64,000 nucleotides of DNA, taken from IMG/VR virus record IMGVR_UViG_3300046665_000548, positions 372,001 to 436,000 of that record; one strand, 5' to 3'. Positions 20,359 to 38,480 of this stretch are shown here, piece after piece. The notes beneath the pieces were generated by a model. It made no database searches, was not told the origin of the DNA, and saw only the letters and a program-made list of their open reading frames with translations. The position numbers and the translations under genes were made by a program. Source of the DNA: a virus. Each line of letters begins with the position of its first letter. Position 1 is the first letter of the stretch.

Positions 20359-21098
20359 TCGGGCCGAATACATTTCAGGACACATTTGGCGTTGAAGGGC
20401 AAGGCTATGGCTACGTAGGTTACCAGGATAATGGGACTCAGACGGATGTGGGAGCCCAAGCTAGAACTTATGCTAGCCAGCAGGACACCGCCAAGGAAGA
20501 CTTCCGAGTCAGGCTCGCAGCCCAGACTCGAACTCAATATAATGGCGAGCTTCTGTCCCCGTTGCTAAACACGGGTGGGCTTCTCTTCCCGTATACGCCG
20601 ACGATTACAGTTTCGCAGGAAGTTGATTATGCGAACATGCAAATGGTCCACAGCAACATGGACTATTATTCATACTCGCGTACCCCGAACACGACGATTT
20701 CGCTGGCCGGAAAATTCACAGTTCAGAACCAGAAGGAAGGGCTCTACGCACTCGCCGCGATCCACTTCTTGAAAACAATGTCAAAGATGTACTTTGGTGA
20801 GAAAGATGCAGGCAATAATCTTGCCGGTCTCCCGCCGCCGATCCTTCTACTGAAGGGTTACGGCAAGTACATGTTCAATAACATTCGAGTCATCCTGAAA
20901 TCCCACAACTACACATTTGAAGAGAGCGCGCAGACCGTCGCCGTCAATACGATAAGCGGCGGCATAGTTCGTCTGCCCGCACTGTTTACGCTATCCTGCT
21001 CTCTCGTGTCCCAGCCTACTACAAAGATGATGCGTAAGGATTTTTCGCTCGATAGCTTTCGTTCGGGTGAACTCCTCAAGACCGGAGGTTACATCTAA
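20346..21098 (+). CDS. Tail-tube junction/initiator protein, gp48/gp54-like
   Basis: This 250-residue protein is of the type that joins the baseplate hub to the tail tube. The segment PYTPTITVSQEVDYANMQMV followed by HSNMDYYSYSRTP and the later AIHFLKTMSKMYFG are characteristic of the gp48/gp54 (tube-fold) group in T4-like phages. Only one such gene is seen here while T4 has two, so it may serve both roles. GGGAG lies before its ATG, inside the upstream gene, and its stop overlaps the gp53 start. Confidence 0.8.
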   Translation: MAELIGPNTFQDTFGVEGQGYGYVGYQDNGTQTDVGAQARTYASQQDTAKEDFRVRLAAQTRTQYNGELLSPLLNTGGLLFPYTPTITVSQEVDYANMQMVHSNMDYYSYSRTPNTTISLAGKFTVQNQKEGLYALAAIHFLKTMSKMYFGEKDAGNNLAGLPPPILLLKGYGKYMFNNIRVILKSHNYTFEESAQTVAVNTISGGIVRLPALFTLSCSLVSQPTTKMMRKDFSLDSFRSGELLKTGGYI

Positions 21099-21403
21099 TG
21101 CAGGTTAAGTACGCTTCTGCGTCCCCGTATGCTGACACTCCACAGTCGCCATGGAGGATCAAGAATTACGTTCACAGAGCAATCCCTGACAGCGCTTCGG
21201 ATAGGCTCATCACGGTCAAAACGAAGCACGAGTATCGCCCCGATCTGCTAAGTTTTGAACTCTACAACACTCCGGAATATTGGTGGGTTTTCATGGTGCG
21301 CAACATGGACATCATTCGTGATCCCATCTGGGACCTCAAGGCTGGAATCACAATCACTGCGCCGTCATTGACGGCAATTCAGGCAGCCAAAGGACAGCCA
21401 TAA
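21098..21403 (+). CDS. gp53: Baseplate wedge protein, gp53-like
   Basis: This 101-residue protein has the gp53 core: DRLITVKTKHEYRPDLLSFE followed by LYNTPEYWWVFMVRN and a C-terminal LKAGITITAP that resembles a LysM-like end. gp53 is a baseplate component contacting the wedge and hub. T4 gp53 is about twice as long; this is a compact version. Its ATG overlaps the upstream stop by one base, and its stop overlaps the next ATG the same way. Confidence 0.8.
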   Translation: MQVKYASASPYADTPQSPWRIKNYVHRAIPDSASDRLITVKTKHEYRPDLLSFELYNTPEYWWVFMVRNMDIIRDPIWDLKAGITITAPSLTAIQAAKGQP

Positions 21404-23487
21404 TGGCAGAAACAGATATCGTCATTGCCAATAATGGGCCAGCGGACATCCCATACAGCAAGTCAACGACTGGCTCCCAATACAATTTCATTGAAAATCC
21501 ACTAAGTCCGTTTGCCCAGGTGGCCTATCACATAACCCTATACGCGATAGGAGATACGGCGACCTATAGCAGTGAGGATGACGGAAAGATCATCATCGCT
21601 GAGAGCGGCGTGACGGGCTATAATATCAAAGATTTGATCATTGACGGGCTTGTTACACCGAACGAGAAATCGCGCGGTACTGTATCCACGAAGATTACGA
21701 TGACCATAACTGAACCGGCCGGGACGAGTTTTCTCGACTCGATGTATGATGCGGTGCTTGCTGTCGGCGGTAGCAACTGGCAAAAGTCCGTTTATCGTCT
21801 TGAGGTCCGATTCAAAGCGTATGACGAGCAGGGAAACATTATCCATTGGCTCGATTCTTCCAATGGCATGCCGAAGGACGGCAAGTGGACGTGGAAGATC
21901 ATGATTGGCGATGTCGAGACGAACCTCGATGCCAGCGGAGCCACGTACAGAATCACTGCCCGACCAATTGAAGAAACGGTGCCGTGGGATGCACCTTCCT
22001 CGACAACTCTTAAGGCTACTACGATTGGCGAATTCTTTACTGCGCTAAAAGACCACTTGAATGGCGCAGATCAGAAGAAGACCAACACCTCTCCGTTGGA
22101 TGAACCGACCATCATCTACGATATCAACGTGCATTCTTTGGCAGATGGTACTGACCCGAAAAGCTGGAGTGTCCTTGGTAAATGGCAAAATCCTGACTTT
22201 CATCCGATTTTCCACAAGGGATTCAAGACTGATGATCGAGACAAAGGAGTGTTCAACCTGACCCGAGGTGAAAAACTTCCTGATATCGTTGATGCCATCT
22301 TTGCCGTTTCTGAAGAAGCTCAGGCGCGCATCAAGAACTCTCAGAAGCCAATCGTTGACCCTAACGACCATGGGGACGGTAATTACCGAGACGCGCTCGT
22401 GTTCCGTATCTATGCGGAAACAGAGATTACCGGATATGACTACGTGAACCAGAATTTGAAGATGAAGGTCACTTATCATATCAAGCCGTTCCAGGCTCAA
22501 AACAATTGGCTTCTCTCTAATGAGACTACCAAACCGGGCAACGGGCAGGCTGCGCTCAATATCGTCAATGGCTACGAGGGTCTGAAGAAACGGTACGAAT
22601 ACCTCTACACGGGCTTGAACACGGAGGTCATCCACCTCGACCTAAAGTTCAATTTCCAGTTTAGCGCTTCAATGCCGCGAGGCAATGGCGACAACTACTA
22701 CAGTGATAACGTTGTGTGGCATGCTCGCATGCCGTCTGATCCCAAGGCAGAAGCCGACAAGCGGAAACAAAAACAAGACGACGAGAACGCCCAAAAGGAC
22801 AGAGACAATCGCGAAAATCTCATCAGGATCAAAAACGGCCTGGAAATGCCGGACCTTACTGCGGAAGAAACGCAGGCTTTGACGAACGAATATCGAACTA
22901 TCGCTACTGCACTACAAGCCGAGTACGAGAACGAAGCCAGAGCCAGACGTGCCCAGTATGCCGGAATCCGTTACGCCGAAGATATCACTGACCGCGCCAC
23001 AAATACGGCCATCGTCAGCACGGGTCAAAGCTCTGGAGAAGGTGCTCGACAGGCGAACCTAAAAGGTCATACAGGCCAGCGGCATCGGGCTAAGTCGGTA
23101 TATGGGGCGTTGCTGGATCAGCTTTACGCGCCAACCAAGGAACTGACGCTGAAGATCAAAGGTGATCCGTTCTGGCTCGGAGACTATCAAACAGTAATGG
23201 TCAACGGAAACCAAGATAAACAACTTGTCGATTGGTCACGTGGGCATGTAGGATTTGTTCTTTACTTTAGATATCCGAAGGGCATGACCGATGAGGGTGT
23301 TCCGATCATTTGGGAAGACAGCCAGGTATTCAATACAGTATATCTACCTTGGTACGTTCAACATTCCTTTGCTAACGGAGCCTTTACTCAAACGTTGAGA
23401 GCACGCCGACTGAGAGCCGTCACAAGAGAAGACGTTGCTCCATTGGCGAGCGTTCAGCCTACTGATAGCCCATTTCCAGGATACTGA
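21403..23487 (+). CDS. Baseplate hub protein, probable gp27/gpD type
   Basis: This 694-residue protein lies between gp53 and the OB-fold spike, where a hub ring protein is expected. Its beta-rich N-terminal half (to about 215), a segment LKFNFQFSASMP near 415 and a charged helical insertion at about 450-520 (KRKQKQDDENAQKDRDN) are visible. The C-terminal part (LTLKIKGDPFWLGDYQTVMV) resembles the final domain of phage hub proteins. It is much longer than T4 gp27 (391 residues). The assignment relies mainly on position and fold-like pattern. Confidence 0.65.
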   Translation: MAETDIVIANNGPADIPYSKSTTGSQYNFIENPLSPFAQVAYHITLYAIGDTATYSSEDDGKIIIAESGVTGYNIKDLIIDGLVTPNEKSRGTVSTKITMTITEPAGTSFLDSMYDAVLAVGGSNWQKSVYRLEVRFKAYDEQGNIIHWLDSSNGMPKDGKWTWKIMIGDVETNLDASGATYRITARPIEETVPWDAPSSTTLKATTIGEFFTALKDHLNGADQKKTNTSPLDEPTIIYDINVHSLADGTDPKSWSVLGKWQNPDFHPIFHKGFKTDDRDKGVFNLTRGEKLPDIVDAIFAVSEEAQARIKNSQKPIVDPNDHGDGNYRDALVFRIYAETEITGYDYVNQNLKMKVTYHIKPFQAQNNWLLSNETTKPGNGQAALNIVNGYEGLKKRYEYLYTGLNTEVIHLDLKFNFQFSASMPRGNGDNYYSDNVVWHARMPSDPKAEADKRKQKQDDENAQKDRDNRENLIRIKNGLEMPDLTAEETQALTNEYRTIATALQAEYENEARARRAQYAGIRYAEDITDRATNTAIVSTGQSSGEGARQANLKGHTGQRHRAKSVYGALLDQLYAPTKELTLKIKGDPFWLGDYQTVMVNGNQDKQLVDWSRGHVGFVLYFRYPKGMTDEGVPIIWEDSQVFNTVYLPWYVQHSFANGAFTQTLRARRLRAVTREDVAPLASVQPTDSPFPGY

Positions 23488-23499
23488 TAAAAGGACGAT

Positions 23500-24579
23500 A
23501 TGCCCGAAATTAATACACAAAATCCCGATTTCGTCACAGAAACATCAGATGGTAGGCCCCGCGAGACTGCCATCTACGTTGGTATTGTTACTGACAACGA
23601 AGATGAACAGCGGATGGGGCGTCTAAAAGTCTACATTCCCGAGCTTGGCGGAAGCCACGGTAACGAGAATACGCATTACATCGTTTCTTATGCTTCTCCG
23701 TTTGCTGGCGCGACTCCGGCAGGTGCCACAAAGAAGCATGAGGACGGCGGTGACGAGATGTCCGGCTCACAGAAGAGCTATGGCTTTTGGATGGTCCCCC
23801 CGGACAAAGACAACGAGGTGCTTGTCTGTTTCGCCAACGGTGACACGCGCCGTGGTTTCTGGTTCGCTTGTCTTTACCAGCAATTCATGAACCACATGGT
23901 GCCGGGTCTCGCGCTCAATAAGGTAACCAATCCGGAGGTCAATCATCTCGCCCCTGTGGTGGAATACAACAAAAAAGATGACGTGCATGCGGCCGACCCA
24001 TGGGACCCGAAGCGTCCTATTTTTGAGCCTTTGCACAACGGCCTTCGTAAGCAGGGCCTCTACACCGATCCGGAACGCGGTCCGTCCACAACGTCTGCCC
24101 GCCGCGAGGCACCATCAAAGGTGTTCGGCTTTATCACGCCGCGCGGTAATACTATGCACATTGATGATAACCCCGAGAACGAATTCGTTCGTTTCCGCAC
24201 CAGGAGCGGTGTGCAGCTTTTGATCCACGAAACCGGTGGCTACATCTACATGATTTCCAAAAACGGAAATTCTTGGCTTCAGGTTTCCGATGAGGGAATC
24301 GATATGTACTCGAAGAAGGGCGTCAACATTCGAGGTGAAGGCGGTCTCAATGTGCACTCTGACAAGAACGTCAATCAGCATTCAGTAGCGGGTCGCCATC
24401 GTCGTTCAGGTAAGGCAACGACCGAGCACAGTGATGGTCAGAAGAGGACGACGGCTGACAAGAAGATCAAAGTCGATTCGGCAGTTAAAAAGGAAGACCA
24501 GAGCAACCCAGCAGGAGGCGGTGGCGGTCAAGATGCTGGCACCCCGGCGAGCGGCGGCTTCGGAAGCAACATCGGCTAA
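23500..24579 (+). CDS. Baseplate spike protein, gp5-like OB-fold without lysozyme domain
   Basis: This 359-residue protein starts like gp5/VgrG OB-fold hub proteins: IYVGIVTDNEDEQRMGRLKVYIPE near residues 27-50, and PPDKDNEVLVCFANGD near 99-114. It continues with GFITPRGNTMHIDDNP near 208 and a beta-rich part (GVQLLIHETGGYIYMISKNG) like the base of the central spike. No lysozyme domain is visible, in contrast to T4 gp5. The lytic activity appears to be supplied by the M23 domain of the next gene. The C-terminal 70 residues are low-complexity and Gly-rich. Confidence 0.85.
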   Translation: MPEINTQNPDFVTETSDGRPRETAIYVGIVTDNEDEQRMGRLKVYIPELGGSHGNENTHYIVSYASPFAGATPAGATKKHEDGGDEMSGSQKSYGFWMVPPDKDNEVLVCFANGDTRRGFWFACLYQQFMNHMVPGLALNKVTNPEVNHLAPVVEYNKKDDVHAADPWDPKRPIFEPLHNGLRKQGLYTDPERGPSTTSARREAPSKVFGFITPRGNTMHIDDNPENEFVRFRTRSGVQLLIHETGGYIYMISKNGNSWLQVSDEGIDMYSKKGVNIRGEGGLNVHSDKNVNQHSVAGRHRRSGKATTEHSDGQKRTTADKKIKVDSAVKKEDQSNPAGGGGGQDAGTPASGGFGSNIG

Positions 24580-24582
24580 GCC

Positions 24583-24589
24583 CTAAATA
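24583..24589 (+). promoter_or_regulatory. Late promoter-like element (CTAAATA)
   Basis: CTAAATA ends 4 bases before the ATG at 24594. The 12-mer CCTAAATAGTCG that contains it is repeated exactly just before the microprotein start at 36783. No ribosome site is present. Confidence 0.45.
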
Positions 24590-24593
24590 GTCG

Positions 24594-27149
24594 ATGCAGT
24601 ACATTGTCGTCACAGCAAAGGGTGCTGATCAACAGCATGTCCTTGACCTCTTCGCCGCGAATTCAGCGATCATCCTGAATGATTACACTGACTTGTTCCC
24701 GGATCACTGGCACGTGTCAGTGGACGACACAGCGGCTATTGAAGCGGACGCGGATGTGCTTTCTGTTGTGCGTGACGATACTCGGATCACGCTTGCTGCA
24801 AGGCAGTCAATGGTGGGTGCGCTAAATGCTGCCTTTTTCGGAGTCAGTCCCAGTCTGACGATGCATTTCACCCGAGGCAATTGGGGATTGGCGCGCATCT
24901 CGGCTGAGACCAACGCGCTCACCGCATCGCAATACGGGCAAGTCGATCTTAGCTATTCGTACACGCGGGACGGCACAGGAGTAGACATATATGTGATCGA
25001 CGGTGAGACAATGTACCCGTCGTCTCTCGGTGCCAACACGACCGAGGGTGGCCCGGCGTCCCGTATCACGGTCATTTTTGACGATGCCGCAAGTATTAGT
25101 GGCATCAATTACGGCGATGAGTCTCCGCAAGTTCTACACGCGGATACGTGCGCGGGCTTTGCGGCTGGTTACGTTCAAGGTCCAGCAAAAGGGGCCAAGC
25201 TCTACTATTCTCGCGCGTTCCACAACAATAGCGCCAGTGTAAATTCCGTTCTTGCCGCGATGGCAGCGTGTTTGGCTCACCACAATCGTAAGAAGGAACT
25301 TGGGGTGAATCGCCCATCGCTTGTGAACATGAGCTTTGGAGCGCTTAGCGATATGTCTTGGTACATGTCGGCGCTCGATGCGCTTACACAAGCCGGAATG
25401 GTCATGTTCATCGCTGCTGGTAACGAGGGAGCGAACCTGGACATAGTTGACTATGCCCCGGCAGAATACGAACCAGCCATCACAGTTGGTGCGTGCCAGA
25501 TCAACGATTCTATATGGCCGTCATCCAACTATGGATCGATCATCGATGTATTCGCTCCTGGAAATGCACTGGGAACGTTCTACGGCCTAGAGTCGTCAAT
25601 GGGCGGCGTCTCCTCTTCTGGTTCCGGCACGAGCTACGCCACTCCTTTCGTGCTCGGAGTGAGCGCCTTGTACCTTCAGGGTAAGGACATCGGGCGCGGA
25701 CCAGAGCAGCAGCAGGAAGTGCGAGATTTTATCGTAAACAATGCATTCATCGATAAGCTAACGCTCGGCTCGGCGGCTGCCACATCTCCAAATCGGTTGT
25801 TGAACAGTTTCTATACTGCGCCAACGAATGCAAAAATAACCTGGGTTGGTCCGGACATCGATTCGTCTGCCGTCAATGACCTTACGGTTATAACATCGCT
25901 TGCTTCGCCCCTTCAGGCCACATCTAGTGATGGCCGTCCGGTGCGGTTCACCCTTGTTGGCGGTCGCCTTCCGTGGGGCTACAGCATCAATGAAACGACG
26001 GGAAGCTTCGTTGGCAATCCGAATACGTTCTGGGGATCATGGAGCGGTTCGTTTACAGTGCGAGCTTGGGTGCAAACAGATTCCGGAGAGCCGGTCATCG
26101 AACAATACCGGGTCATCCGGTATGACAACATAGCGGGAACGCGAGGCGGGTCTATCACCGGAAATACCGCGCTGTTTCGTTGGCACGTTCCGACGACGAT
26201 GCCGAGCATAATGTTCGGCATTCCTTCGCGACAGCGTTTCTTGACACAGGACAACAGCGGAGGCGAACGGTTTGCTACGTTCGTAAGCGGAACCATTCCT
26301 CCCGGTATGTCATACAACAATTCCACTGGTGTTCTTTCAGGTACTCCGACGAGTTCTGGAATGTATCAGTTTACTCTTGGCGTCGTATATACGACAGGTT
26401 CACCACAGGACACCAGGACATACACGCTGCAAGTCCTCGGCTATCCAAGCATCACGGCCTCACAGACGATCTCTGCCTTTCAGTCCGTTGGTGCTGTTAA
26501 TGAGCTAACAATGGCGACTGGACAGTCAACAATGGCCGCCTATACCCAGGCCGCCAATGCTGTACGGATGATTACCTCACTTGCAACTGGGCAATCAATG
26601 GTGGGTGCATTCACTCAATCTGCGAATGCTGTCAAATCGATCAAATGGGCACTGCCAACAACACGCGGGAAAGTAACTGATGTGCCGGGCTCCCACCGTC
26701 TTGGCGGGCGCACTCACACGGGCTACGATATAGCCGTTGATTCAGGAACATTCGTTTATGCTGCGGGAAACGGTGTAGTTACGCACGCCGTAACAAAGAT
26801 CGACCGTAATCCGGCCGGACGACGTGTCTACATAAAGCACGAAGATGGCTCAACGACTCGATATTTGCATTTGAGCAAAGTAGACACGTTCGCCGGAGTT
26901 GAGGTGAAGGCCGGAGACTATCTAGGTCTCTCTGGTAGCAGCGGTCCGTTTGATGACGGAGACTACGCTCCGCATTTGCACTTTGAACGAAGGGACGCCA
27001 TCACTGACGAGCTACTACCGGCCTTCGGTGATTCGCGGTGGGCTGATAAATTCAAGGTCGGCTTCACGTGGGATATCGGTCTCAACGATGACGAGGCAGA
27101 AGCAATAGCCCAGGCAAAAGCTGACGCTCAAACCAACGACGAATATTAA
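24594..27149 (+). CDS. Subtilase-Ig-M23 peptidase fusion, tail-associated
   Basis: This 851-residue protein joins two hydrolases. Residues about 125-370 form an S8 subtilisin-like protease with catalytic Asp136 (YVIDGE), His182 (LHADTCAG), oxyanion Asn277 (AAGNEG) and Ser347 (GTSYATP). Residues about 430-620 hold two putative Ig-like domains (RLPWGYSINETTGSFVGNP and TIPPGMSYNNSTGVLSGTP). From about 685 a LytM/M23 zinc endopeptidase follows, with HTGYD near 706 and HLHFE near 793. It follows the lysozyme-less spike gene, so it probably sits at the tail tip and opens the cell envelope: M23 cuts peptidoglycan peptides, and the subtilase might cut surface protein or process the fusion itself. Confidence 0.85.
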   Translation: MQYIVVTAKGADQQHVLDLFAANSAIILNDYTDLFPDHWHVSVDDTAAIEADADVLSVVRDDTRITLAARQSMVGALNAAFFGVSPSLTMHFTRGNWGLARISAETNALTASQYGQVDLSYSYTRDGTGVDIYVIDGETMYPSSLGANTTEGGPASRITVIFDDAASISGINYGDESPQVLHADTCAGFAAGYVQGPAKGAKLYYSRAFHNNSASVNSVLAAMAACLAHHNRKKELGVNRPSLVNMSFGALSDMSWYMSALDALTQAGMVMFIAAGNEGANLDIVDYAPAEYEPAITVGACQINDSIWPSSNYGSIIDVFAPGNALGTFYGLESSMGGVSSSGSGTSYATPFVLGVSALYLQGKDIGRGPEQQQEVRDFIVNNAFIDKLTLGSAAATSPNRLLNSFYTAPTNAKITWVGPDIDSSAVNDLTVITSLASPLQATSSDGRPVRFTLVGGRLPWGYSINETTGSFVGNPNTFWGSWSGSFTVRAWVQTDSGEPVIEQYRVIRYDNIAGTRGGSITGNTALFRWHVPTTMPSIMFGIPSRQRFLTQDNSGGERFATFVSGTIPPGMSYNNSTGVLSGTPTSSGMYQFTLGVVYTTGSPQDTRTYTLQVLGYPSITASQTISAFQSVGAVNELTMATGQSTMAAYTQAANAVRMITSLATGQSMVGAFTQSANAVKSIKWALPTTRGKVTDVPGSHRLGGRTHTGYDIAVDSGTFVYAAGNGVVTHAVTKIDRNPAGRRVYIKHEDGSTTRYLHLSKVDTFAGVEVKAGDYLGLSGSSGPFDDGDYAPHLHFERRDAITDELLPAFGDSRWADKFKVGFTWDIGLNDDEAEAIAQAKADAQTNDEY

Positions 27150-27160
27150 GGACATTCATC

Positions 27161-27454
27161 ATGGCAGGTAAAAACAAGGTAGAGCCGGACGAAAGCGATC
27201 CGGTCGAGTACACTGGTGCCGAGGCTCAATCCGGTAAGGAAGATGGGCGCAAGGAAGCGGAAGAGCCGCCGAAGCCGGAAGAGCACGCTAACACGGAAGG
27301 CGAGCCCGGTAAATGGAAGCAGAAAAAGAAAAAGTCAATCGTGACGCGATTGCCATGCCATGAACCATTCGCTGGTCATCCCAAGACGAAACTCAAGAAC
27401 CCTCGTGATGGCGGTAATGGTCGCGGCGATGAAGGTCGTAATCAAAAGAAGTAA
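27161..27454 (+). CDS. Small charged protein ending the hub cluster
   Basis: This 97-residue protein has an acidic first half, then Lys-rich stretches, and a segment TRLPCHEPFAGHP near residues 64-76. That segment resembles the HEPW..H motif found at the ends of hub or lysozyme proteins in T4-like phages. It follows the protease fusion by 11 bases and may be a detached tail piece of the spike or an assembly factor. The composition suggests disorder. Confidence 0.6.
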   Translation: MAGKNKVEPDESDPVEYTGAEAQSGKEDGRKEAEEPPKPEEHANTEGEPGKWKQKKKKSIVTRLPCHEPFAGHPKTKLKNPRDGGNGRGDEGRNQKK

Positions 27455-27813: not shown

Positions 27814-29271
27814 TCAGAACATTCTTACGCCGTGAAGAGCTTGGAACCGTAGAGCATCATCCCAAGTATTCACCAATGGCTCGCCCTTGATGTTCAAGCT
27901 AGTATTCAACAGCATTGGGCATCCGGTAGCTTTATACCAATCCATCAGAAGGCCATAAAACATTGGGTTCTGATCCTCAGTGAGGGTCTGGACGCGGGCC
28001 GTGTTGTCGTAGTGTGATATGGCGGGAAACAGATCGGGTCTCCTCACGGGGGCTACGAACTGCATGTAAGGGCTCGTCGCGACGGGCATCTCAAAATAAT
28101 CGTTGGCGAACTGCTCTAGGATAATCGGAGCGAACGGCCGGAACGGTTCGCGCTTCTTGATCCGATTCACGCGATCTTTCGTCGCCGGGCCGCGAGGGTC
28201 GGTGAGGAGAGAACGATTCCCTAGCGCCCGAGGGCCGAATTCGGCCCGGCCATTGGCCACGCCTACGACCTCTCCCGCCAAAAGAGCCTCCAGGCAGCCC
28301 TGGCGGTCGAATGGGCGGGCTATGTCGTGGCCCAGGTACGCAGAGCGCCAGTTCAATTGCTGGCGCTGGTAGGCCGCCACAGCGCCAATGCTGGAGCCAG
28401 CGTCGCCAGGGTTTGGCATGATCCAGATATTCTGGAATGCTCCTCCGGTCGCGATGCGAGAATTCGCAACACAATTTAGCGCCACGCCGCCTGCCAGCAC
28501 GAGATTAGGCGAACCGGTTTGCAAGGAAGCCCAGTCGATGAGGCTGATGAGATATTCTTCGGTGACTTCCTGGATAGAGGCGGCGATGTTCGCGTTGTCG
28601 GTGATCTCTGGACGCCAATCCCGTATTCCGCGATGAACGTTTTGCTTCAGACGAAATTCCGGCAGCCGTGCCTTCTGAACGAAATCCTGGCGGATGATGT
28701 CCGCGTAGATGGGTTTGCCAAGTGCGGCCATACCCATCAGAATGTATTCTTCCTCGTTCGGTTTGAAGCCGATCCGTTGAGTAAAGGCGCTGTACAGAAG
28801 ACCGAGACTGTGGGGATAATTCTGAGACCAAAGCTCGGTTAGATCATCGCCCTCGCCGTGCCACATGCTGATGGTGTTCCATTCGCCAATCGCATCAATG
28901 ACGAGAACAATCGCGTCAGAAAATCCACTTGTGAAATAACCAGCCGCAGCATGGCTTTCGTGGTGGCCGACATATTTGACCGGCGCGGTAAGACCATGTT
29001 GCTTGAGATAGCTCGCGCCGTCCGTGCGCATCACGCTGTCATATTGACCCGCGTATAGCTTCCGAGTGCGCTTCAGAAACGGCCTCTCATACCAAACGAT
29101 GAGATCGGGTTCGCCATGGACGCGAGCAGCGCTGATCAGGTCTGGGTGAAGATGGGCATCGTTCTTGACACGACTGTATCGTTCAGAATGGGAAGCGAAC
29201 AGAATTTCCTGATCTTTGATAACGGCTAGGCTTGCGTCGTGCTCGTTAGCGCTTATGCCGTAGATGACCAT
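27814..29271 (-). CDS. Carbamoyltransferase, NodU/CmcH/TobZ family
   Basis: This 485-residue enzyme transfers a carbamoyl group from carbamoyl phosphate through carbamoyl-adenylate to a hydroxyl group. It starts YGISANEHDASLAVI, with the metal-binding HHESHA at about 103-108 and ...VLVIDAIGEW near 131, and has the C-terminal YrdC-like part GRAEFGPRALGNRSLL typical of the family. NodU carbamoylates Nod factor in rhizobia and TobZ acts on tobramycin. The substrate here is unknown; a sugar made by the glycosyltransferases of this island or a virion glycan is plausible. It overlaps the SGNH gene by 19 bases and is slightly shorter than NodU. Confidence 0.9.
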   Translation of the reverse strand: MVIYGISANEHDASLAVIKDQEILFASHSERYSRVKNDAHLHPDLISAARVHGEPDLIVWYERPFLKRTRKLYAGQYDSVMRTDGASYLKQHGLTAPVKYVGHHESHAAAGYFTSGFSDAIVLVIDAIGEWNTISMWHGEGDDLTELWSQNYPHSLGLLYSAFTQRIGFKPNEEEYILMGMAALGKPIYADIIRQDFVQKARLPEFRLKQNVHRGIRDWRPEITDNANIAASIQEVTEEYLISLIDWASLQTGSPNLVLAGGVALNCVANSRIATGGAFQNIWIMPNPGDAGSSIGAVAAYQRQQLNWRSAYLGHDIARPFDRQGCLEALLAGEVVGVANGRAEFGPRALGNRSLLTDPRGPATKDRVNRIKKREPFRPFAPIILEQFANDYFEMPVATSPYMQFVAPVRRPDLFPAISHYDNTARVQTLTEDQNPMFYGLLMDWYKATGCPMLLNTSLNIKGEPLVNTWDDALRFQALHGVRMF

Positions 29272-30145: not shown

Positions 30146-31378
30146 TTATTTATTGCTGTCCAGTATGGCCCAAAATTCAGGAAACACAGCGGCGTAACTT
30201 TCCTTTCGGTATTTGTCATGCCGATCTACGGTCTGGAGAAACGAGTCTAGGAGATTTTTTCCTGGGGCGCGCAGCAGGCTAATAATGCCGTCAAGCGGCT
30301 CGAACAAAATCGAACACTCGTCCACGCTCATTCCAGAAAGCTTTACGGCAATCGCTTCTTTGACTGGTTGTGGTAGGTTCATGGCGGTCATGTTGTCTGG
30401 ATTGTAGAGCATGTTTACCCAAACCCGCACGTTGAGATCACGAAAATACTGGACGTACTCAGGCAGGTAAAAAATGTTCAAGCTCGATACGGTGAGACAC
30501 ACATGGACATCCTTCGGCCCCATGGTTTCCAGGAAACGCTTCATGTTTTGCTCAACTAGCGGCCACTTAGCCGGATATCTCTGGTATTCGAACTGTTCTC
30601 CTGTGCCATCGATAGAGAGCATGATGTCTACGCGCTTGAAATGCGGGAATAGGTTTTCGATGGCGTCTTCCGGATAGATCGTTCCGTTCGTGTTGTAGTG
30701 AACGGTCTGGTTCTTCGACCATCCGTTATCAACCGCGTGTCGTAGAAGCTCAAAATGACGTTGAATGAGAAACGGCTCTCCGCCGTAAATCTCAAAGTGC
30801 TCAATATGCGGAAGCCATTCTTCAAGATCAGTCCAAAATCGCGGATTGTGCTCGTGCCAATTCATGAGCATCTTGCGTTCAAGCGGGAAACTAGCCGTGG
30901 ACAAGTTCTTCGCCGCATTGGTGATCACGTCGCTGCCATAGATGTCGATGGTCTCTTTGATCCATTTCGAGGAAGAGCCAACCGAACAGATACGGCACTT
31001 GAGGTTGCAGAGATTTCCAAGCTTCAGGTCCAGGAAGATCGGCTGAAGCTCGTCCTCTGGGACACTCAGTACGGCTTCCACTTTATTCCACCAACGCTTG
31101 TTCTCTCGAATGCGCTTGGATGTCTTACCAGCGGCTTCTTCGCGCCAGCATGACGAACATGCGGGGTGCTTAGTTCCTGCTACGAGCGCGCCTCGGAGAT
31201 CACGAACTGACTTGGACTTCCATACGTCCGTCATGCTGTCGCGTGCCAGAGTGAACTTGGTGCCGTCTTCCTTCTCGAAGAAATGCGTGCTCATACAGCA
31301 GGGAGCCACAAACCCGTCAGCGCGAGCTTCCAGATGGATGAAAGGCAGGATGCAAAAGGTATCGCTTATAGTAGACAT
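30146..31378 (-). CDS. Radical SAM protein, twitch/SPASM type (copy A)
   Basis: This 410-residue enzyme belongs to class I of the eight in this island. The [4Fe-4S] motif is CNLKCRIC (Cys 124, 128, 131), and GGEP for SAM binding is in HFEIYGGEPFLI. Before it lie Cys9, Cys27-Cys28 and Cys74/Cys77 (CSSCW), a set that may hold an auxiliary cluster. The end has the family motif AAVFPEFWAIL. It is the last of five tandem class I genes and overlaps copy B by 13 bases. Radical SAM enzymes use an organic radical to cut C-H bonds; the reaction and substrate are unknown. Confidence 0.9.
   Translation of the reverse strand: MSTISDTFCILPFIHLEARADGFVAPCCMSTHFFEKEDGTKFTLARDSMTDVWKSKSVRDLRGALVAGTKHPACSSCWREEAAGKTSKRIRENKRWWNKVEAVLSVPEDELQPIFLDLKLGNLCNLKCRICSVGSSSKWIKETIDIYGSDVITNAAKNLSTASFPLERKMLMNWHEHNPRFWTDLEEWLPHIEHFEIYGGEPFLIQRHFELLRHAVDNGWSKNQTVHYNTNGTIYPEDAIENLFPHFKRVDIMLSIDGTGEQFEYQRYPAKWPLVEQNMKRFLETMGPKDVHVCLTVSSLNIFYLPEYVQYFRDLNVRVWVNMLYNPDNMTAMNLPQPVKEAIAVKLSGMSVDECSILFEPLDGIISLLRAPGKNLLDSFLQTVDRHDKYRKESYAAVFPEFWAILDSNK
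30147..30154 (-). promoter_or_regulatory. Late promoter -10 element (AATAAATA)
   Basis: This octamer is one mismatch from the late consensus and is built into the last codons and stop of radical SAM copy A (AAT AAA TAA). It lies 24 bases before the SGNH hydrolase ATG and could give that gene and the carbamoyltransferase separate late transcription. Confidence 0.5.
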
Positions 31379-32571
31379 GCAAGCTCCGGGAAGGTCGTGG
31401 CAAAATCTTCTCCACGAAGATCGTCCATTTGCTTAAGTTTGTACCGAAGACGACCCAGCCATTGCGGCTCATGGGGCTGGCGAAGGCTAGTGATCGCGCC
31501 CTCCCAGCGACTGAGGGCCATTTGGTTTCCACCAACACTCTTCAGCCAATCCATGTGATCTTCGTATAGCTCGATAGCCTTTTCGCGAAGATTGTCGGGA
31601 GCCACGGATGGACGGAAATATTCAGGATATGTTAGAGGATTGATGTTCCATTCACTCGGCTCTACTAGTCCTTCCTCTACCCACGTGCGGTGGAAGGCTG
31701 GCATGTCGAGAAAATTCAGCACGCTCAAAGTAAAGTTAACGTAGAAATTAACGTTCGGGCATACGCGCATCATCTCTTTGCGATTGGCAACGATCTGATC
31801 CCACTTCATACCTTTGCGAATGTATTCGCCCTTTTCGCCCATGCCGTCCAGTGATGCCCCGACAACCACATACTTGAACTGATTCCAAAGTTCGAACACC
31901 TTGAGGTCTTTGAAGGCGGTCTGCGACATATTAGTATTGTAGCTGAGGTGCACGTCGAAGCGACCTTGCGCGGCGAGCATTTTTAAAATGCGGTAGTGCT
32001 CTTCCATCATCAATGGTTCGCCCCCCGCAAAGTAAATTTTCTCCACGGTCGGCAGAAAGCTTTCAATTTCTCCCCAAAGTTTTTCCGGATCATCCGGCCG
32101 CAGGATACGCTTGCTCGGCTTGCGACCTGACGCCTTTGCGTCATCGAACCAATTAGAGGAAAGCTCTGGTCCGCAGGTGCGGCATCGAAAATTACAGATA
32201 TTACTGAAACGGATATCCAAGTACGGCATGTTGATGCGATCAACGGTGCCATCCTCTTTCGTTTCGGAAACGATCTCCAGGTGATGCTTGAACGATTCGT
32301 TGTGGTCAATGCGCAGAGAACGGAAACCAGATTGCTCCATCTCGTAGCAGCGCGAGCATTCATCGGACGCCTTGTCCGCCAGCATGTTCAAACGAATCTG
32401 CTTCAGCTTCGGACTGTTCCAAACGTCTGCGAGCCCAGTTTCTTTGCCGATCTTTGCTATCGGCTTCTGTGAGTCCTGAACGCAACACAAATACGTGTTG
32501 CCGTTTGGCCAAGCATGCAGATGAGTCCATGGGACGAGACAGAAATGTTTGTTAGATAGTATATCAGTCAT
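31366..32571 (-). CDS. Radical SAM protein, twitch/SPASM type (copy B)
   Basis: This 401-residue class I enzyme has the cluster motif CNFRCRTC (Cys 126, 130, 133), the GGEPLM SAM-binding motif (KIYFAGGEPLMM) and the N-terminal set Cys11, Cys29-30, Cys72/Cys75. It ends ATTFPELACLL. The N-terminal pattern CLVPWTHLHAWPNG is shared with copies A, C and D. It overlaps copy C by 8 bases. Family knowledge suggests peptide or protein modification for SPASM/twitch members, but no precursor peptide of the classical kind is seen beside it. Confidence 0.9.
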   Translation of the reverse strand: MTDILSNKHFCLVPWTHLHAWPNGNTYLCCVQDSQKPIAKIGKETGLADVWNSPKLKQIRLNMLADKASDECSRCYEMEQSGFRSLRIDHNESFKHHLEIVSETKEDGTVDRINMPYLDIRFSNICNFRCRTCGPELSSNWFDDAKASGRKPSKRILRPDDPEKLWGEIESFLPTVEKIYFAGGEPLMMEEHYRILKMLAAQGRFDVHLSYNTNMSQTAFKDLKVFELWNQFKYVVVGASLDGMGEKGEYIRKGMKWDQIVANRKEMMRVCPNVNFYVNFTLSVLNFLDMPAFHRTWVEEGLVEPSEWNINPLTYPEYFRPSVAPDNLREKAIELYEDHMDWLKSVGGNQMALSRWEGAITSLRQPHEPQWLGRLRYKLKQMDDLRGEDFATTFPELACLL

Positions 32572-33781
32572 TTAGACCCTTCAGAAGAGCATACAATTCT
32601 GGGAAAACATCTTCTGATTTCTCGCTGCGATTGGCATCGAGAGCGCCGTTGTATGTGATGCCACGGCGTAGAAGGTCGGGATTACTGGGGTTATTTAGTA
32701 GCTGGCTTTTGATGCTATTGAAATCATAATCCGCCAGCACTGGCTCCATCTTGGCCAACGCAGCCATTTTGATGCGCTCGGGTAAAATCCATGGAGCCAA
32801 ATATTCTGGATCGTAGATATAGTTGAAATGCACGTGGAGGCCACGACCATGCTTCATATACTGGTAATACTCGGGGACTGTGAGTAGGTTTTGCCATCCA
32901 ATGGTCTGATTGACCGACGTGTTGATCCACGTTTCTTTCTGAAGTCGATCTAGGTTGCGTTCAACGTCCGCCCATTTCGTGCCATATCTGAGAAGCGCGT
33001 TTCGTTCTCCGAGATCGTCAATCGAGCAGGAGATACGAACTTCCTTGAACGAACGCCACACCTCGAAGGCGCTCTCCGGAAGGTTGGTCATGTTGATGTT
33101 GTACCAGAGCACGACATCCTTGGCCTTGCCGGAGGCGCGCAGCCGCTCCAGGAACTCCCAGTGTTTCTTGATCAGCGTCGGCTCGCCACCGTTGATGTAG
33201 ATCAGTTCCAGGTGGGTGGAGTTCTCAAACAGATCATCCCAGAACAGGTCTTTCTCCGGCCAATCGAAACCGGTCAAGCCTTGGTATGATCGAACGAAAT
33301 CAAACTTTTGTTCGAGTTGCGCGTACTCGACCACCCACTTAGACGAAGAGGCGGGATTGCAGGAGCGACATTTGACGTTGCAGATATTACCAAGTCGTAA
33401 TTCCACAAAACGCAGTTTGGGTGCAATCCGTCCGTCGTTGTCCGTCTCTAGCGCAGCAACCTCGCGAGTTAGGTCCGCAAAATTTTCATTCTCGGCAAGC
33501 CTTTTAGATTTCACGCCATTCTCTTCCTCACGGAAGCAACGCATGCAAGCGAGCGGCTTTCGGCCGTCAAGCATCTGCTTTCGAACCTGCCGAAAGTAGT
33601 CGCTATTCATGATCTCATCTGTAGAGTTTTGGTTCAGGTTTAACCACTCAGTGCTTCCATCTTCACGAAAATTGCGAGATCGGTTGACGCCTTTGTCGTG
33701 ATTGCTCACGCAGCACAACGTGACGCCGCCGTGGGGATGACTGGCTAGATGCAACCATGGGAGAACGCAAAACGTGCTCAT
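32564..33781 (-). CDS. Radical SAM protein, twitch/SPASM type (copy C)
   Basis: The open frame starts further upstream at 33961, but the family start MSTFCVLPWLHLASHPHGG is at 33781 and overlaps the copy D stop by four bases (ATGA), so I use it (405 residues). The cluster motif is CNVKCRSC (Cys 134, 138, 141). The SAM motif is YINGGEPTLI, and the N-terminal cysteines are Cys5, Cys23-24, Cys79/Cys82. It ends EDVFPELYALL. It is the third of five tandem class I genes. Confidence 0.9.
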   Translation of the reverse strand: MSTFCVLPWLHLASHPHGGVTLCCVSNHDKGVNRSRNFREDGSTEWLNLNQNSTDEIMNSDYFRQVRKQMLDGRKPLACMRCFREEENGVKSKRLAENENFADLTREVAALETDNDGRIAPKLRFVELRLGNICNVKCRSCNPASSSKWVVEYAQLEQKFDFVRSYQGLTGFDWPEKDLFWDDLFENSTHLELIYINGGEPTLIKKHWEFLERLRASGKAKDVVLWYNINMTNLPESAFEVWRSFKEVRISCSIDDLGERNALLRYGTKWADVERNLDRLQKETWINTSVNQTIGWQNLLTVPEYYQYMKHGRGLHVHFNYIYDPEYLAPWILPERIKMAALAKMEPVLADYDFNSIKSQLLNNPSNPDLLRRGITYNGALDANRSEKSEDVFPELYALLKGLND

Positions 33782-34977
33782 ACCCAATGATCTTCTATTA
33801 GTTTGTACATCTCCGGAAATGTAGCCGCAAAATCCTCTTTGCGATACGCATCGCCCTCTTTGATCTCTTTTACGGCTCGCTTCATGAGATATTCGTCGTA
33901 CTCGGAATTCTCCATATGGTTCATCAGGGGCGTGACCGCAGCTAGCGTTTGCTCTCTCCAAACCTTTGACCGGAGATGATTACAGATCACATCCTTTGCT
34001 GCTCTCGGTAGAATACTCACTTGATACCACGGCGGAAAGTAAACAAGATTGTGCCATACGGTGTCTTCGATACCGAGTGTATCAAGATACTCATGCAGTT
34101 CGTGGATATAGTAAATGTTGTGCAGCGACACGGTATGCGTGATGCCGAAGTCGAACTTCATGCGGTCGTCTAATGAGTTTCGGAGGTTCGTAAAATACTC
34201 CAAATTGGATGCAGCAAGGGACCAGTTGCCTGGATGTCGAAGGTACTCAAACCGCTTGCCGACACCATCAACGCTTAGGCCAATCGCCATCCCTGCGAAA
34301 TTATCGATAATGCGCTCGATCAGCTTTTCGGGGCGTTGAGTGCAATTTGAAGACATCCGGATGCGAACGTTCTTCGCGTATCCCTTGTCGATGAACTCAT
34401 CTAGTACAGTGGCGAACTCCTTCATGAAGAAGGGCTCGCCTCCCATGAACTCCAAAGATCGTACATGCGGCATCCACTCGTCGCGGGTGTTCCAGAAGGC
34501 GCTATCATTCGAGATTATCTTCTGGCTACCGATTGGATCGAAACTGATATTGCGATCAATTGCTTCTTTAATCCACTTAGACGATGCGTGTGGATGGCAT
34601 GTTCGGCACTTTAGATTGCAAGTATTATTCAGTATTAGCTGCCAGTCATCCGGAAGCCCAGGCTCGGCGTCATAGTCGATTACTCGTCCATGATCGTCAG
34701 CCATTTTATTGTAGATCATGCGCTTGGAAGTTTTACCGTTTGCTTCATCCGACCAGCAAATGTTGCACGTCTGTGGCTTCTCACCGTCGCGAAACTGTTT
34801 TCGAAGCTTCTTCATGTATGGGCCATGAAAGATTTCGTTCACAGAACTGGTCTGGAGTTTCAACGGAACGCCGTCATCTCCGGTAATTTTCTCAGACGCG
34901 ATACAGCAAGCCCGCAATATGCCATTCGCTTCATTAGCCAAATGCGTCCAAGGCAGAGAACAATAAGTTTTAGTCAT
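33778..34977 (-). CDS. Radical SAM protein, twitch/SPASM type (copy D)
   Basis: This is a 399-residue class I enzyme starting MTKTYCSLPWTHLANEANG. I chose the ATG at 34977 because it shares one base with the copy E stop (TGATG) and aligns with the other copies; an ATG five codons upstream is possible. The cluster motif is CNLKCRTC (Cys 120, 124, 127), the SAM motif LEFMGGEPFFM, and the N-terminal set Cys6, Cys24-25, Cys71/Cys74 (CNICW). It ends FAATFPEMYKLI. Of the five it is closest to copy A in plan. Confidence 0.9.
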   Translation of the reverse strand: MTKTYCSLPWTHLANEANGILRACCIASEKITGDDGVPLKLQTSSVNEIFHGPYMKKLRKQFRDGEKPQTCNICWSDEANGKTSKRMIYNKMADDHGRVIDYDAEPGLPDDWQLILNNTCNLKCRTCHPHASSKWIKEAIDRNISFDPIGSQKIISNDSAFWNTRDEWMPHVRSLEFMGGEPFFMKEFATVLDEFIDKGYAKNVRIRMSSNCTQRPEKLIERIIDNFAGMAIGLSVDGVGKRFEYLRHPGNWSLAASNLEYFTNLRNSLDDRMKFDFGITHTVSLHNIYYIHELHEYLDTLGIEDTVWHNLVYFPPWYQVSILPRAAKDVICNHLRSKVWREQTLAAVTPLMNHMENSEYDEYLMKRAVKEIKEGDAYRKEDFAATFPEMYKLIEDHWV

Positions 34978-36359
34978 CAGTTTTTCATCCACCAGCGGAG
35001 CACATCCGGATAGGGTTCAAATATTTGTTCGATTGTAATGCGACCGTTCTGGCCATCGCCGCGATGCCGGGCGAGACGTTGCAGAAACTCGCGCCCCTTG
35101 TAAAACGCTTCTTCGTATCGATCTGGGAACTGTTCTTCGAACGTTGGGCGAGTGCGCATGTCTTGTAGTGTCGTCACCAAGGTCTGAGTACGGTGGTTGA
35201 CCTTTGGCTCCATGTAACAGAGCAGATCATCAAGAACGTCATCCAGCACTTTACGTGGTAGCGCGAAAGGCGAAACTAGCTTCTCCGGATCGAACGCGTA
35301 AACGATCTTCGTCAAGATATCGACATCTAGTTCGTTGGCTAGATCGAAGAACTCTTTCATGTGGAGGAGGCCCGGAAGGGTCAGCGTCAGATCAAGCTTC
35401 ATGCGATCACGCAACTCTGGGACCTCAAGTCCGGCCTTAAAGTTGACGAGCCATTCGTCCCAGTTCAACCCAGTGCGGATGTACTCACCGACGCGGCCCG
35501 TCGCGTCAATCGAGCAGCACATTAGGTAATTCTTATAGTGCGGAAGGATGTCCTTAAACAGGTTCACGCCCTTCCAATCGATCCTGGACAGGTTCGTGTT
35601 GTAGCGCGCGTAGACGTTCTTGGAGTGGCCGCTTTCTACCATGTGGTGCATAAGCTCCCAGTGCTTTTCCCACATCAGCGGTTCGCCCCCGACCCAGTAA
35701 AGCTCTTCCACGATCCCCTGCTTGCACGCATCCGCGAGTTCCACCTCGACCGTTCCGGTCTGGAACTCTTCAATCTGAGCCTTCATCTCCGGCACCATCC
35801 AGGGGTCATAGATCGGAGACCACTCGTCATGCTTGCGCTTCTCGGCTTCCCAAGAAGACGATAGTTGATGACCGCACATACGGCACTTAAAGTTACAGAG
35901 ATTGTTGATCCGATAGTCGAAGCTGATGACCGGCAAGCTGAGATGTCCGGTGTCATCTGTGGCCGCAAACACCTCATCTACCTTTTCGTGAAACAGGTGA
36001 TTAAACCAGTTACGGTAGACATCAATGTTCAGTATTCGGTCGTTGCAGACCATACACTCAGGAATAACCTCGCCCGCCATATGAGCAAGTCGAACCTTCT
36101 TCAAGGCATCGCTATTCCAATGTTCTTCAAGCGTCTTCGGAGCATACCCGGTTGATGTGTTTTCGCCAGACCCGCTGTCGATATACTGTCGGATGTAGCT
36201 TGCTTCTTCTCTCGACGCACAGCAAAGCCGCCGTTCGCTCTGAGGCGAGATATAAGTGTGGGTAAACGGAGCCATGCAGAACGTTTTGTTCGGAGAATCC
36301 TCCTTGAAACGACCACTGGTTTCAAAGAGGGGTCGGACGCGCTTCGGCTGATGAATCAT
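34977..36359 (-). CDS. Radical SAM protein, twitch/SPASM type (copy E)
   Basis: This 460-residue protein is the longest class I copy and the first of the tandem five. An extra N-terminal stretch of about 20 residues precedes KTFCMAPFTHTYISP. The cluster motif is CNFKCRMC (Cys 155, 159, 162), and the SAM motif is YWVGGEPLMW. The N-terminal cysteines are Cys28, Cys46-47 and Cys102/Cys105. A C-terminal extension follows EQFPDRYEEAF. No late-promoter element was found directly upstream, so its transcription start is uncertain. Confidence 0.9.
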   Translation of the reverse strand: MIHQPKRVRPLFETSGRFKEDSPNKTFCMAPFTHTYISPQSERRLCCASREEASYIRQYIDSGSGENTSTGYAPKTLEEHWNSDALKKVRLAHMAGEVIPECMVCNDRILNIDVYRNWFNHLFHEKVDEVFAATDDTGHLSLPVISFDYRINNLCNFKCRMCGHQLSSSWEAEKRKHDEWSPIYDPWMVPEMKAQIEEFQTGTVEVELADACKQGIVEELYWVGGEPLMWEKHWELMHHMVESGHSKNVYARYNTNLSRIDWKGVNLFKDILPHYKNYLMCCSIDATGRVGEYIRTGLNWDEWLVNFKAGLEVPELRDRMKLDLTLTLPGLLHMKEFFDLANELDVDILTKIVYAFDPEKLVSPFALPRKVLDDVLDDLLCYMEPKVNHRTQTLVTTLQDMRTRPTFEEQFPDRYEEAFYKGREFLQRLARHRGDGQNGRITIEQIFEPYPDVLRWWMKN

Positions 36360-36445
36360 GAACTAGAGTTTACGGAAATCCCTTGACGAAAACCATTTGT
36401 TTGGTAACGATCAGGTATAGCGAATCACCTACGAAAAGCGACGCA

Positions 36446-36700
36446 ATGCCCGGTGAACCCCACAATACTAATGCACCGGAACAAGATTGGCAGCGCCCAC
36501 GTAACTGTCATTGCCTAACCACACAGCAACGCGCTTGCTGTTACGAGCAATGCGACCCTGAAGACGTGGGTCGCATCATGCGGAAGGGCGAAGGATTGAT
36601 GGTCTTCGGATATTCGCTCGTGGCTGTAGTCGCCATCACTATCGTGATGTTCGCAGTTAAATGTACGTTTGGATCAGGGTGCTTTGGGCAGTATCAATAG
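36446..36700 (+). CDS. Cys-rich single-pass membrane protein
   Basis: This 84-residue plus-strand gene lies between two minus-strand radical SAM groups. It has a Cys-rich N-terminal part (CHCLTTQQRACCYEQC) and a membrane helix near residues 55-73 (YSLVAVVAITIVMFAVKC), with two more cysteines at the end. I chose the ATG at 36446; an upstream TTG at 36383 overlaps a possible promoter (TTGACG). It is opposite in strand to everything around it, so it may be an independent early gene. Function unknown. Confidence 0.5.
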   Translation: MPGEPHNTNAPEQDWQRPRNCHCLTTQQRACCYEQCDPEDVGRIMRKGEGLMVFGYSLVAVVAITIVMFAVKCTFGSGCFGQYQ

Positions 36701-36783
36701 ATGAACGGATCGCGCTTGCGTAGTTTACGCAACTTGTTCTTCAATTTGATCCAGTCGATGAAGCGTTGAAAGAGTGTAATCAT
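36694..36783 (-). CDS. Basic microprotein ending DPFIY, 29 residues
   Basis: This 29-residue product (MITLFQRFIDWIKLKNKLRK, then LRKRDPFIY) is an amphipathic basic helix. The same layout, ending in DPFIY, recurs in T4-like phages as I remember them. The ATG at 36783 follows a CTAAATA late-promoter-like element by 5 bases with no ribosome site. It overlaps the plus-strand membrane gene by 7 bases at the 3' ends and lies 15 bases after radical SAM copy F. Function unknown. Confidence 0.6.
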   Translation of the reverse strand: MITLFQRFIDWIKLKNKLRKLRKRDPFIY

Positions 36784-36788
36784 ACGAC

Positions 36789-36795
36789 TATTTAG
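36789..36795 (-). promoter_or_regulatory. Late promoter-like element (CTAAATA)
   Basis: The element ends 5 bases before the ATG at 36783. It lies inside the 12-mer CCTAAATAGTCG that is repeated exactly before the subtilase fusion gene at 24594. The spacing predicts a leaderless transcript. Confidence 0.45.
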
Positions 36796-36798
36796 GCG

Positions 36799-38199
36799 TT
36801 AGATTACAGACCCGCTGATCAATTCCTGGCGAAAACCTAGATTGGTCGTCGGGATAGTATTGAGCCAATCCCTCATGGAAGGGAACACGTCGATACTCTT
36901 ACCTCGTCGTACGTCATACTGTGCGTGGAAGCTCTTAAAATCCTGTTGGAGCTTGCCCATTTCGTCCGCACCTGGATGAGGTGTCTTAACCGCGTCGAGA
37001 TAGTCTGCCAGCCGCTGGATATTCTCGATCTCGAAAGACGATACGAGAGGATTGTCCTTAAGCTGGGCGCAGAGCGTCACTAAAGTGTCACGACGTTCCG
37101 CCAGTACGGCTGGCGGAAGGACGAGCGGGCTCATGAAACTCGGAAAACGCACGATATTGGCGCTCCACCGTACGCGTTCGCTGCCAAACTGCCGCTTCCA
37201 CTCAATCATAACGTCCAGGAACTCAGGCAAACTGAACAGGGAGAGATTGTTGATGGTCATCATCATGGTTAGCTGCTTCACGTTGCCATGGGTCATGACC
37301 TTTTCGACGTTGGCCTTCCAGGTGTCGAAAATCATCCCGTCTCGGATGTACTCTGCTTGAGCGCCCATGGCTTCGTTGGACGAGAAGATTTGCAGGTCCG
37401 GGACGGCATGCGATTTTTCAATCAGCCGGTCGATCAGTTCTGGCTTCCCGCCCAGGTTGGTATTGATCGCAAATTGAACCCCATTGGTGCCGTTTTCCTC
37501 AAAGAAATCGAACAGCTTCCAAACGTCCACCGACATCAAAGGCTCACCGCCAGTGATGCGAAGCTGCTTCAGTGTTTTGGATAGTTCTGGCCACCACTTC
37601 CAGAATGCAGCGATATACGGGTTTCCTTCATTGCGTTTTCCGTACGGCTCGGCCCATGCTCCGTTGTGCTGGAACGCACCAGCGCCGTCACTAACGAGGT
37701 TCTGGTACGCGCCATGCGTGTTGATATCCTTGGCCCATGTAGTGGAGAACCCAGCGTTACAATACGAACATGCGAAGTTGCAGGTACGATTGAATGCGAT
37801 CTCAAGCGTCTCCAGATGCACGTCCGCATCCCATGGCATTTTGGCGATTTGGTCGATTGATGTTTGATCGTATCGGGAAGATTTGAAAGCTCGATCAGAA
37901 ACGTTGTTCCGATTAATCCCCTCAATTCGCCAGCAGTAGTCGCACTCAGAAGGCTGATGCCCGTCGAGCATCAGCTTGCGCATCTTTTTCTTGTGCACGG
38001 TGTTGTGAAGCGCTGACGGATTGACGGCGATCTCGTCTAGCTGAATCTTGTGTGCAGGCGGTAGGTGGCATGACGCGGTTGCGCCATGGCCGAGCCAGAT
38101 GGTTGAGTCGAGCCATTTTGTTGCACAGAACGACGGCGATACCGGATCGAGCACGCGAGCCTGATAGTCCTGCCAGGATTCGTCAGCCTTCTTTGTCAT
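36799..38199 (-). CDS. Radical SAM protein, class II (copy F)
   Basis: This 466-residue enzyme belongs to the second class in this island. Its start is set by an ATGA overlap with the small gene upstream (38199). The cluster motif is CNFACSYC (Cys 140, 144, 147) and the SAM motif is LRITGGEPLMS. The N-terminal set differs from class I: Cys25 (FCATKW), Cys44 with His45 (SCHLPPAH), then Cys86/Cys89 (CDYCW). The segment HNTVHKKKMRKLMLDG is nearly identical in copies G and H. It ends IDVFPSMRDWL. The small motif protein gene directly upstream is a possible partner or substrate. Confidence 0.9.
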   Translation of the reverse strand: MTKKADESWQDYQARVLDPVSPSFCATKWLDSTIWLGHGATASCHLPPAHKIQLDEIAVNPSALHNTVHKKKMRKLMLDGHQPSECDYCWRIEGINRNNVSDRAFKSSRYDQTSIDQIAKMPWDADVHLETLEIAFNRTCNFACSYCNAGFSTTWAKDINTHGAYQNLVSDGAGAFQHNGAWAEPYGKRNEGNPYIAAFWKWWPELSKTLKQLRITGGEPLMSVDVWKLFDFFEENGTNGVQFAINTNLGGKPELIDRLIEKSHAVPDLQIFSSNEAMGAQAEYIRDGMIFDTWKANVEKVMTHGNVKQLTMMMTINNLSLFSLPEFLDVMIEWKRQFGSERVRWSANIVRFPSFMSPLVLPPAVLAERRDTLVTLCAQLKDNPLVSSFEIENIQRLADYLDAVKTPHPGADEMGKLQQDFKSFHAQYDVRRGKSIDVFPSMRDWLNTIPTTNLGFRQELISGSVI

Positions 38200-38480
38200 T
38201 GCTGAGCACCATGCCATCTCAGCTTAAACAGTATCGCGTGCTTCGGATTGTCGAACATATACATCACGTTTTCCGGTAGTCCCCCGATATACCCCTCATT
38301 CCAATACGTCCAATTGTCAGTATACATTGAACCGACGTGATCCATACACCAAAAGAGCCGCGCTTCGGCGGTTGGGCCTGTCGGGAGAGTGATGATATGC
38401 GGAAACCGCATCATCTCTGCGCGAACCTCTTCCAGCCTCTTTTGGGCTTGTTCCTCTGGCGTAAGATCGTCAATCATCAT
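38196..38480 (-). CDS. Small motif protein paired with radical SAM copy F
   Basis: This 94-residue protein ends VMYMFDNPKHAILFKLRW plus HGAQQ, the clearest form of the shared C-terminal signature. It starts within the last codons of copy G (38480 or 38477) and its stop overlaps the ATG of copy F, so it is translationally locked to both. The first 35 residues are helical and charged, followed by an aromatic-rich part. It is one of three small genes placed immediately upstream of each class II radical SAM gene, which suggests a functional pair. Confidence 0.8.
   Translation of the reverse strand: MMIDDLTPEEQAQKRLEEVRAEMMRFPHIITLPTGPTAEARLFWCMDHVGSMYTDNWTYWNEGYIGGLPENVMYMFDNPKHAILFKLRWHGAQQ

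Follow-up and report, generated by a model that had tools for sequence, protein, structure and literature searches.

Depolymerases and peptidoglycan hydrolases carried by phage virions are well known. To our knowledge, virion proteases targeting host surface proteins have been little studied. Among the described tail-tip enzymes, the Tal proteins of the lactococcal phages Tuc2009 and TP901-1 are wall-degrading lysins; the lysin of Tal2009 belongs to family M23, and a linker separates the lysin from the tail part of the protein (PMC9662197, PMC11409707). In PMC6102473, gp699 of the giant Agrobacterium phage Atu_ph07 is named as a predicted lysozyme, and CDS 284-329 form a cluster of virion proteins defined by mass spectrometry, with gp329 as its last gene; the gp numbers of this source and of RefSeq agree for gp327, gp697, gp699 and gp701.

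The window analysed here is a stretch of 64,000 nucleotides, positions 372001-436000 of a virus record of 607,744 bases (~608 kb), and the relatives of this virus suggest that its host may be rhizobial. One of its genes would encode a tail-fibre-type subtilase zymogen (prodomain, S8 domain and Ig modules) joined via fibre-type repeats to an M23 endopeptidase. This composite gene appears to be flanked on either side by a part of a gp5-like spike gene that has been split, in the position occupied by the wall enzyme of the spike in related giant phages.

Domain architecture and catalytic residues

The gene at 24594-27149 is a single uninterrupted frame (Table 1). Its product was matched by the Pfam families Peptidase_S8 (PF00082, E 2.9e-23) and Peptidase_M23 (PF01551) and, in two stretches, by the Ig-like He_PIG (PF05345, E 1.4e-10). 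All these scores exceed the curated Pfam cut-offs and are therefore far beyond chance. An AlphaFold model of the full 851 residues had a mean pLDDT of 43.8; the Ig-like modules appeared in it as strands, mostly at pLDDT 55-80, and the S8 fold was not read from it. A T4-like late promoter, CTAAATA at 24583, was considered and dropped, as the motif is not above chance (three seen on the strand, 3.4 expected).

Table 1. Coordinates in the window of the composite gene, its parts and the neighbouring baseplate genes
Feature	Position	Strand	Size or residues	Basis
gp53-like baseplate wedge gene	21098..21403	+	101 aa	Phage_gp53 E 1.2e-5; phrog_7145 5.7e-26
Virion structural protein	21403..23487	+	694 aa	phrog_11190 E 4.3e-46; syntenic with Atu_ph07 gp698
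gp5-like spike	23500..24579	+	359 aa	Phage_base_V; phrog_13211 E 5.4e-47
S8-Ig-Ig-repeat-M23 protein	24594..27149	+	851 aa	open frame and Pfam
I9-like prodomain	24594..24791	+	residues 1-66	predicted fold
Disordered junction	24798..24875	+	residues 69-94	pLDDT under 50
Subtilase catalytic domain	24876..25820	+	residues 95-409	PF00082 and structure match
Catalytic Asp136	24999..25001	+		alignment
Catalytic His182	25137..25139	+		alignment
Oxyanion Asn277	25422..25424	+		alignment
Catalytic Ser347	25632..25634	+		alignment
Two Ig-like (He_PIG) modules	25836..26435	+	residues about 415-614	PF05345
Three fibre-type repeats, 21-23 aa	26445..26642	+	residues about 618-683	repeat profile
M23 peptidase domain	26712..26993	+	residues 707-800	PF01551 7.9e-20
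97-aa gene with displaced spike motif TRLPCHEPFAGH	27161..27454	+	97 aa	sequence comparison

The subtilase half was modelled separately, as residues 1-409, with an alignment of 32 sequences (31 of them other viral subtilases), and reached a mean pLDDT of 80. This model matched keratinase 5wsl with Z 34.9 over 271 residues, a score to be read with the fact that subtilases were already part of the alignment from which the model was built, and its residues 1-407 superposed on pro-Tk-subtilisin and pro-subtilisin E at Z about 34. The domain is a proteinase K-like member of peptidase family S8 with the subtilisin fold. Residues 1-60, at pLDDT 91-96, follow the order beta-alpha-beta-beta-alpha-beta, and in the structure alignment of the model the match to pro-Tk-subtilisin and pro-subtilisin E begins at residue 1; the Pfam I9 sequence model gave no match there. 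The disordered junction that follows is the expected region of cleavage between the pro and mature parts in this model, and contains the motif QSMVGA.

In alignments with keratinase 5wsl and aqualysin 4dzt, residues D136, H182, N277 and S347 fall on the catalytic residues of these enzymes, and the tetrad is invariant across the 32 subtilases (the present protein and 31/31 relatives). The surroundings of two of these residues are unusual. The His stands in LHADT in place of the usual GHGTH, whose G, G, T and H are kept in 29-30 of the 31 relatives, and the Asp is followed by G-E, giving DGE where D-S/T-G is usual; this part of the sequence does not line up with that of the relatives. Around the His and Asp of the paralogue encoded by this genome, the sequences are NHGEI and DSG. 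The D-S/T-G and G-H-G-T-H surroundings are a signature of S8 and do not define the triad. Judged from these motifs, the activity of the S8 domain may be weak or lost; the tetrad is nevertheless kept in both copies, which are 40% identical overall, and this argues for retained function.

The M23 domain is complete, with the motifs of family M23 (M23B, LytM-type), and is predicted to be a hydrolase: H708-x3-D712, H759 and H794-x-H796 are all present in the alignment with Pgp3 (6jmx). The linker before it resembles 21-aa repeats found in two large proteins that the same genome encodes. In a search of this genome with a repeat profile, the first unit of the linker scored 9.7 bits, as against a maximum of 5.8 in 300 shuffles; the other two units are like the first by eye and like each other by alignment. 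The two large frames, of 1409 and 1192 aa (L181 and L183), lie at about 314-319 kb of the record, are made of 21-aa repeats and are probably fibre-like structural proteins. QSMVGA recurs exactly once outside the prodomain junction, in the pre-M23 linker (positions 71 and 667). Any repeated 6-mer arose in 49 of 2000 shuffles, and the alignment score of the junction was reached by 37 of 5000 shuffled junctions. The original prediction of a complete Asp-His-Ser triad, two Ig-like modules and a C-terminal M23 domain with HxxxD and HLHFE motifs is thus borne out; the prodomain, the three repeats and the atypical surroundings of the S8 Asp and His were not part of it.

The split spike and its enzyme slot

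On the plus strand, the genes run in the order nucleotidyltransferase-like gene, structural protein, gp53-like protein, structural protein and gp5-like spike; the minus-strand neighbours are recombination nucleases. The gene order of this region is that of the baseplate region of Atu_ph07 and of Sinorhizobium phage Phosso. An OB-fold spike gene lies within a run of baseplate genes, and the wall hydrolase domain (M23) is in the gene that follows. The spike product consists of an OB domain and the short start of a beta-helix, with neither an enzyme domain nor the HEPF motif, so that the spike upstream does lack a lysozyme domain, as had been proposed. It is 53 and 48% identical to the hubs of Atu_ph07 and Phosso, which extend much further. 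The spike motif (HEPF/W) occurs once in the window, in the 97-aa gene downstream, the product of which matched, in single comparisons, the second frame of the spike of L007 (E 1e-9), the spike of L013 (4e-9) and that of Phosso (8e-7). Since the spike is shortened and the motif that should follow the helix is found in the 97-aa gene, the spike module is split and has the S8-M23 gene within it. A frameshift fusion with the spike is not supported; all three genes differ in reading frame and have their own starts, with gaps of 14 bases between the spike and S8-M23 genes and 11 bases between the S8-M23 and 97-aa genes. As M23 and spike are in separate frames, the M23 domain is part of a gp5-like module and not of a gp5-type spike-lysin fusion.

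Among the matches listed, 80 loci with related spikes of uncultivated phages were found, some cut by contig ends, and 39 of these spikes were scanned for domains. Their C-terminal domains were phage lysozyme (7), SLT (4), M23 (3), CHAP (1), a cell-wall hydrolase of the SleB type (1) and a trypsin-like domain (1). Judging from such matches, the part after the beta-helix in related spikes is an exchangeable slot, usually for predicted peptidoglycan hydrolases. The closest relative, L007, has a similarly split spike, with M15 and tail-lysozyme domains in the second gene. The spikes of Atu_ph07 (L003:9959-12556) and Phosso (L004:9980-13114) are each encoded by one long gene for an OB domain, a beta-helix, the motif R-x-P-T-H-E-P-F, a stretch without a Pfam assignment and a trypsin-like C-terminal domain. 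By alignment, Atu_ph07 has kept the full triad of this domain; Phosso has lost it, with Gln in place of the His and Ala in place of the Ser. In the present virus, the M23 domain probably fills the C-terminal enzyme slot of the spike module. The original placement of the protein at the tail tip stands as regards the spike context, given by synteny and by the enzyme slots of the relatives; the tail tip itself is read solely from gene order.

Further downstream, a carbamoyltransferase gene (27814-29271) adjoins, on the minus strand, about seven large frames in a row that resemble one another (401-481 aa; 30146-39915). Three of these were scanned and had Radical_SAM matches, two of them below the Pfam cut-off, and one also matched SPASM; another locus (L100) holds a similar frame.

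Relatives of the two halves and rarity of their pairing

The subtilase half has relatives near fibre genes. A paralogue (L002), at 553 kb of the same record, is 40% identical over residues 1-622, has the S8-Ig arrangement and lies directly after a fibre-like gene. A stand-alone S8 relative (L087) is flanked by two fibre-like genes, and the S8-Ig protein of Atu_ph07, gp329, is encoded near the tail fibre gp327. These three share the S8 domain with the present protein, as does Phosso gp119, and Ig modules occur in three of the four; unlike the present protein, all four lack M23 and none is encoded beside a spike gene. Some cyanophage proteins that carry the name baseplate wedge or tail fibre also contain S8 folds. 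The S8-Ig half is therefore a tail-fibre-type subtilase module that also occurs without M23. S8 was seen in another probable tail protein, a viral frame of ~1014 aa from a tail region (L102:4698-7739) with a subtilase at its N-terminus. In Prochlorococcus phage P-HM2 (NC_015284.1, 96807-102290; L098), a subtilase-like stretch occurs in a 5.5-kb gene adjoining the gp13 neck gene.

None of the 68 viral subtilases among the matches listed, some cut by contig ends, carried M23, and no S8 domain was found near the related spikes in the 80 loci among the matches listed, with flanks of up to 6 kb. In none of the roughly one hundred relatives examined was the joined S8-M23 form found at the spike. Searches of viral contigs and of phage records gave no close homologue of the 851-aa protein over its full length; the best match in phage records had 48% coverage and 28% identity. 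Matches in bacterial genomes (L184-L187) were 26-33% identical, and the three frames read by eye (L184-L186) had no M23. An S8 match labelled as Acinetobacter 'phage' (H1), which sits among bacterial-type genes, was dropped together with its twin H2. No description of a tail subtilase joined to M23 was found in the literature searched. The pairing had been called unusual, and the joining of S8 and M23 is indeed rare in these samples; however, a protease in a spike module is not wholly unique, given the trypsin-like domain of Atu_ph07.

Proposed role and comparison with known tail-tip enzymes

We lean, with moderate confidence, towards a virion enzyme in which the subtilase cuts a host-surface protein and the M23 domain opens peptidoglycan during entry. 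The synteny with Atu_ph07 and Phosso, the exchangeable slot, the displaced motif in the 97-aa gene and the fibre-type paralogue all support such a role. So do the single M23 domain in the record, the fibre-like neighbours of the L087 S8, the position of gp329 at the edge of the virion-protein cluster of Atu_ph07 (PMC6102473), the S8 folds in named tail proteins of other phages and the conserved catalytic tetrad. The subtilase, once folded, would remove its own prodomain and, upon host contact, would cut a proteinaceous barrier at the surface of the cell; the M23 domain would then open the peptide cross-links of peptidoglycan while the tail enters. Virion presence, activity of both domains, their order of action and a surface substrate are what we infer here. 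The subtilase had been suggested to cut a host surface protein, to activate the M23 domain or to aid release of the spike, and we lean to the first of these roles because the S8-Ig half is of fibre type and is found also without M23. Being encoded by a separate gene, the protein is not necessarily attached to the spike.

It is possible but unlikely that the main target of the subtilase is its own polypeptide or other tail proteins next to it, in particle maturation or in a linker cut that releases or activates M23. The prodomain junction and the pre-M23 linker share QSMVGA, and TP901-1 Tal offers a precedent, as its Gly-rich linker is processed and the wall-degrading C-terminal domain removed (PMC11409707). 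However, fibre-type 21-aa repeats account for the linker, so the shared 6-mer may be a coincidence; its statistic is modest and it was noticed after the fact, and neither the paralogue nor the other subtilases associated with fibres carry an M23 domain that could be released. A self-activating two-stage entry enzyme, in which a virion-bound S8 zymogen would fire on host contact, clear a protein layer and simultaneously cut the linker so that M23 could open the wall, is a scheme that we consider distinctly improbable.

An S8 domain no longer catalytic, serving as a folded spacer or binding module, is in our judgement rather unlikely. DGE and LHADT in place of the usual motifs would fit it, and so would the Phosso spike, in which the protease domain of such a module has lost its triad, but Asp, His, Asn, Ser and the prodomain are kept in two copies that have diverged to 40% identity. 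Very improbable is a lysis enzyme for progeny release, with M23 as the endolysin of the phage. In its favour, a search of the 608-kb record that covered M23, phage lysozyme (PF00959) and SLT domains gave the M23 domain of this gene and no other. However, the gene lies within a baseplate run, M23 is fused to the spike in relatives, and a fused subtilase would have no obvious use in an endolysin.

The S8-M23 gene, the paralogue of fibre type and the trypsin-like domain on the Atu_ph07 spike suggest repeated recruitment of proteases to the tails of giant phages of this group. The evolution of tail tips is illustrated concretely by the split spike, whose enzyme slot is exchangeable. If active, the protein would combine two enzymes in one naturally occurring tool and would serve to test how a phage breaks through protein layers ahead of the wall.

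Each half of the protein is of a known kind; what is rare, in the samples examined, is their joined form in the spike position. Tal of Tuc2009/TP901-1 is a wall-degrading lysin of the tail tip with a linker, as is proposed for the present protein, but it has no subtilase, is processed at a Gly-rich motif and belongs to siphophages of a Gram-positive host. Atu_ph07 gp699 and its Phosso homologue share the gene position and the succession of spike and protease fold, but they are single genes with a trypsin-like domain instead of a subtilase, and without M23. The spikes of two uncultivated phages (L016 and L018) have, as here, M23 in the C-terminal slot, after a HEPW/HEPY motif; there the M23 domain is part of the spike polypeptide itself and has no subtilase, whereas here it is encoded by a separate gene and joined to S8.
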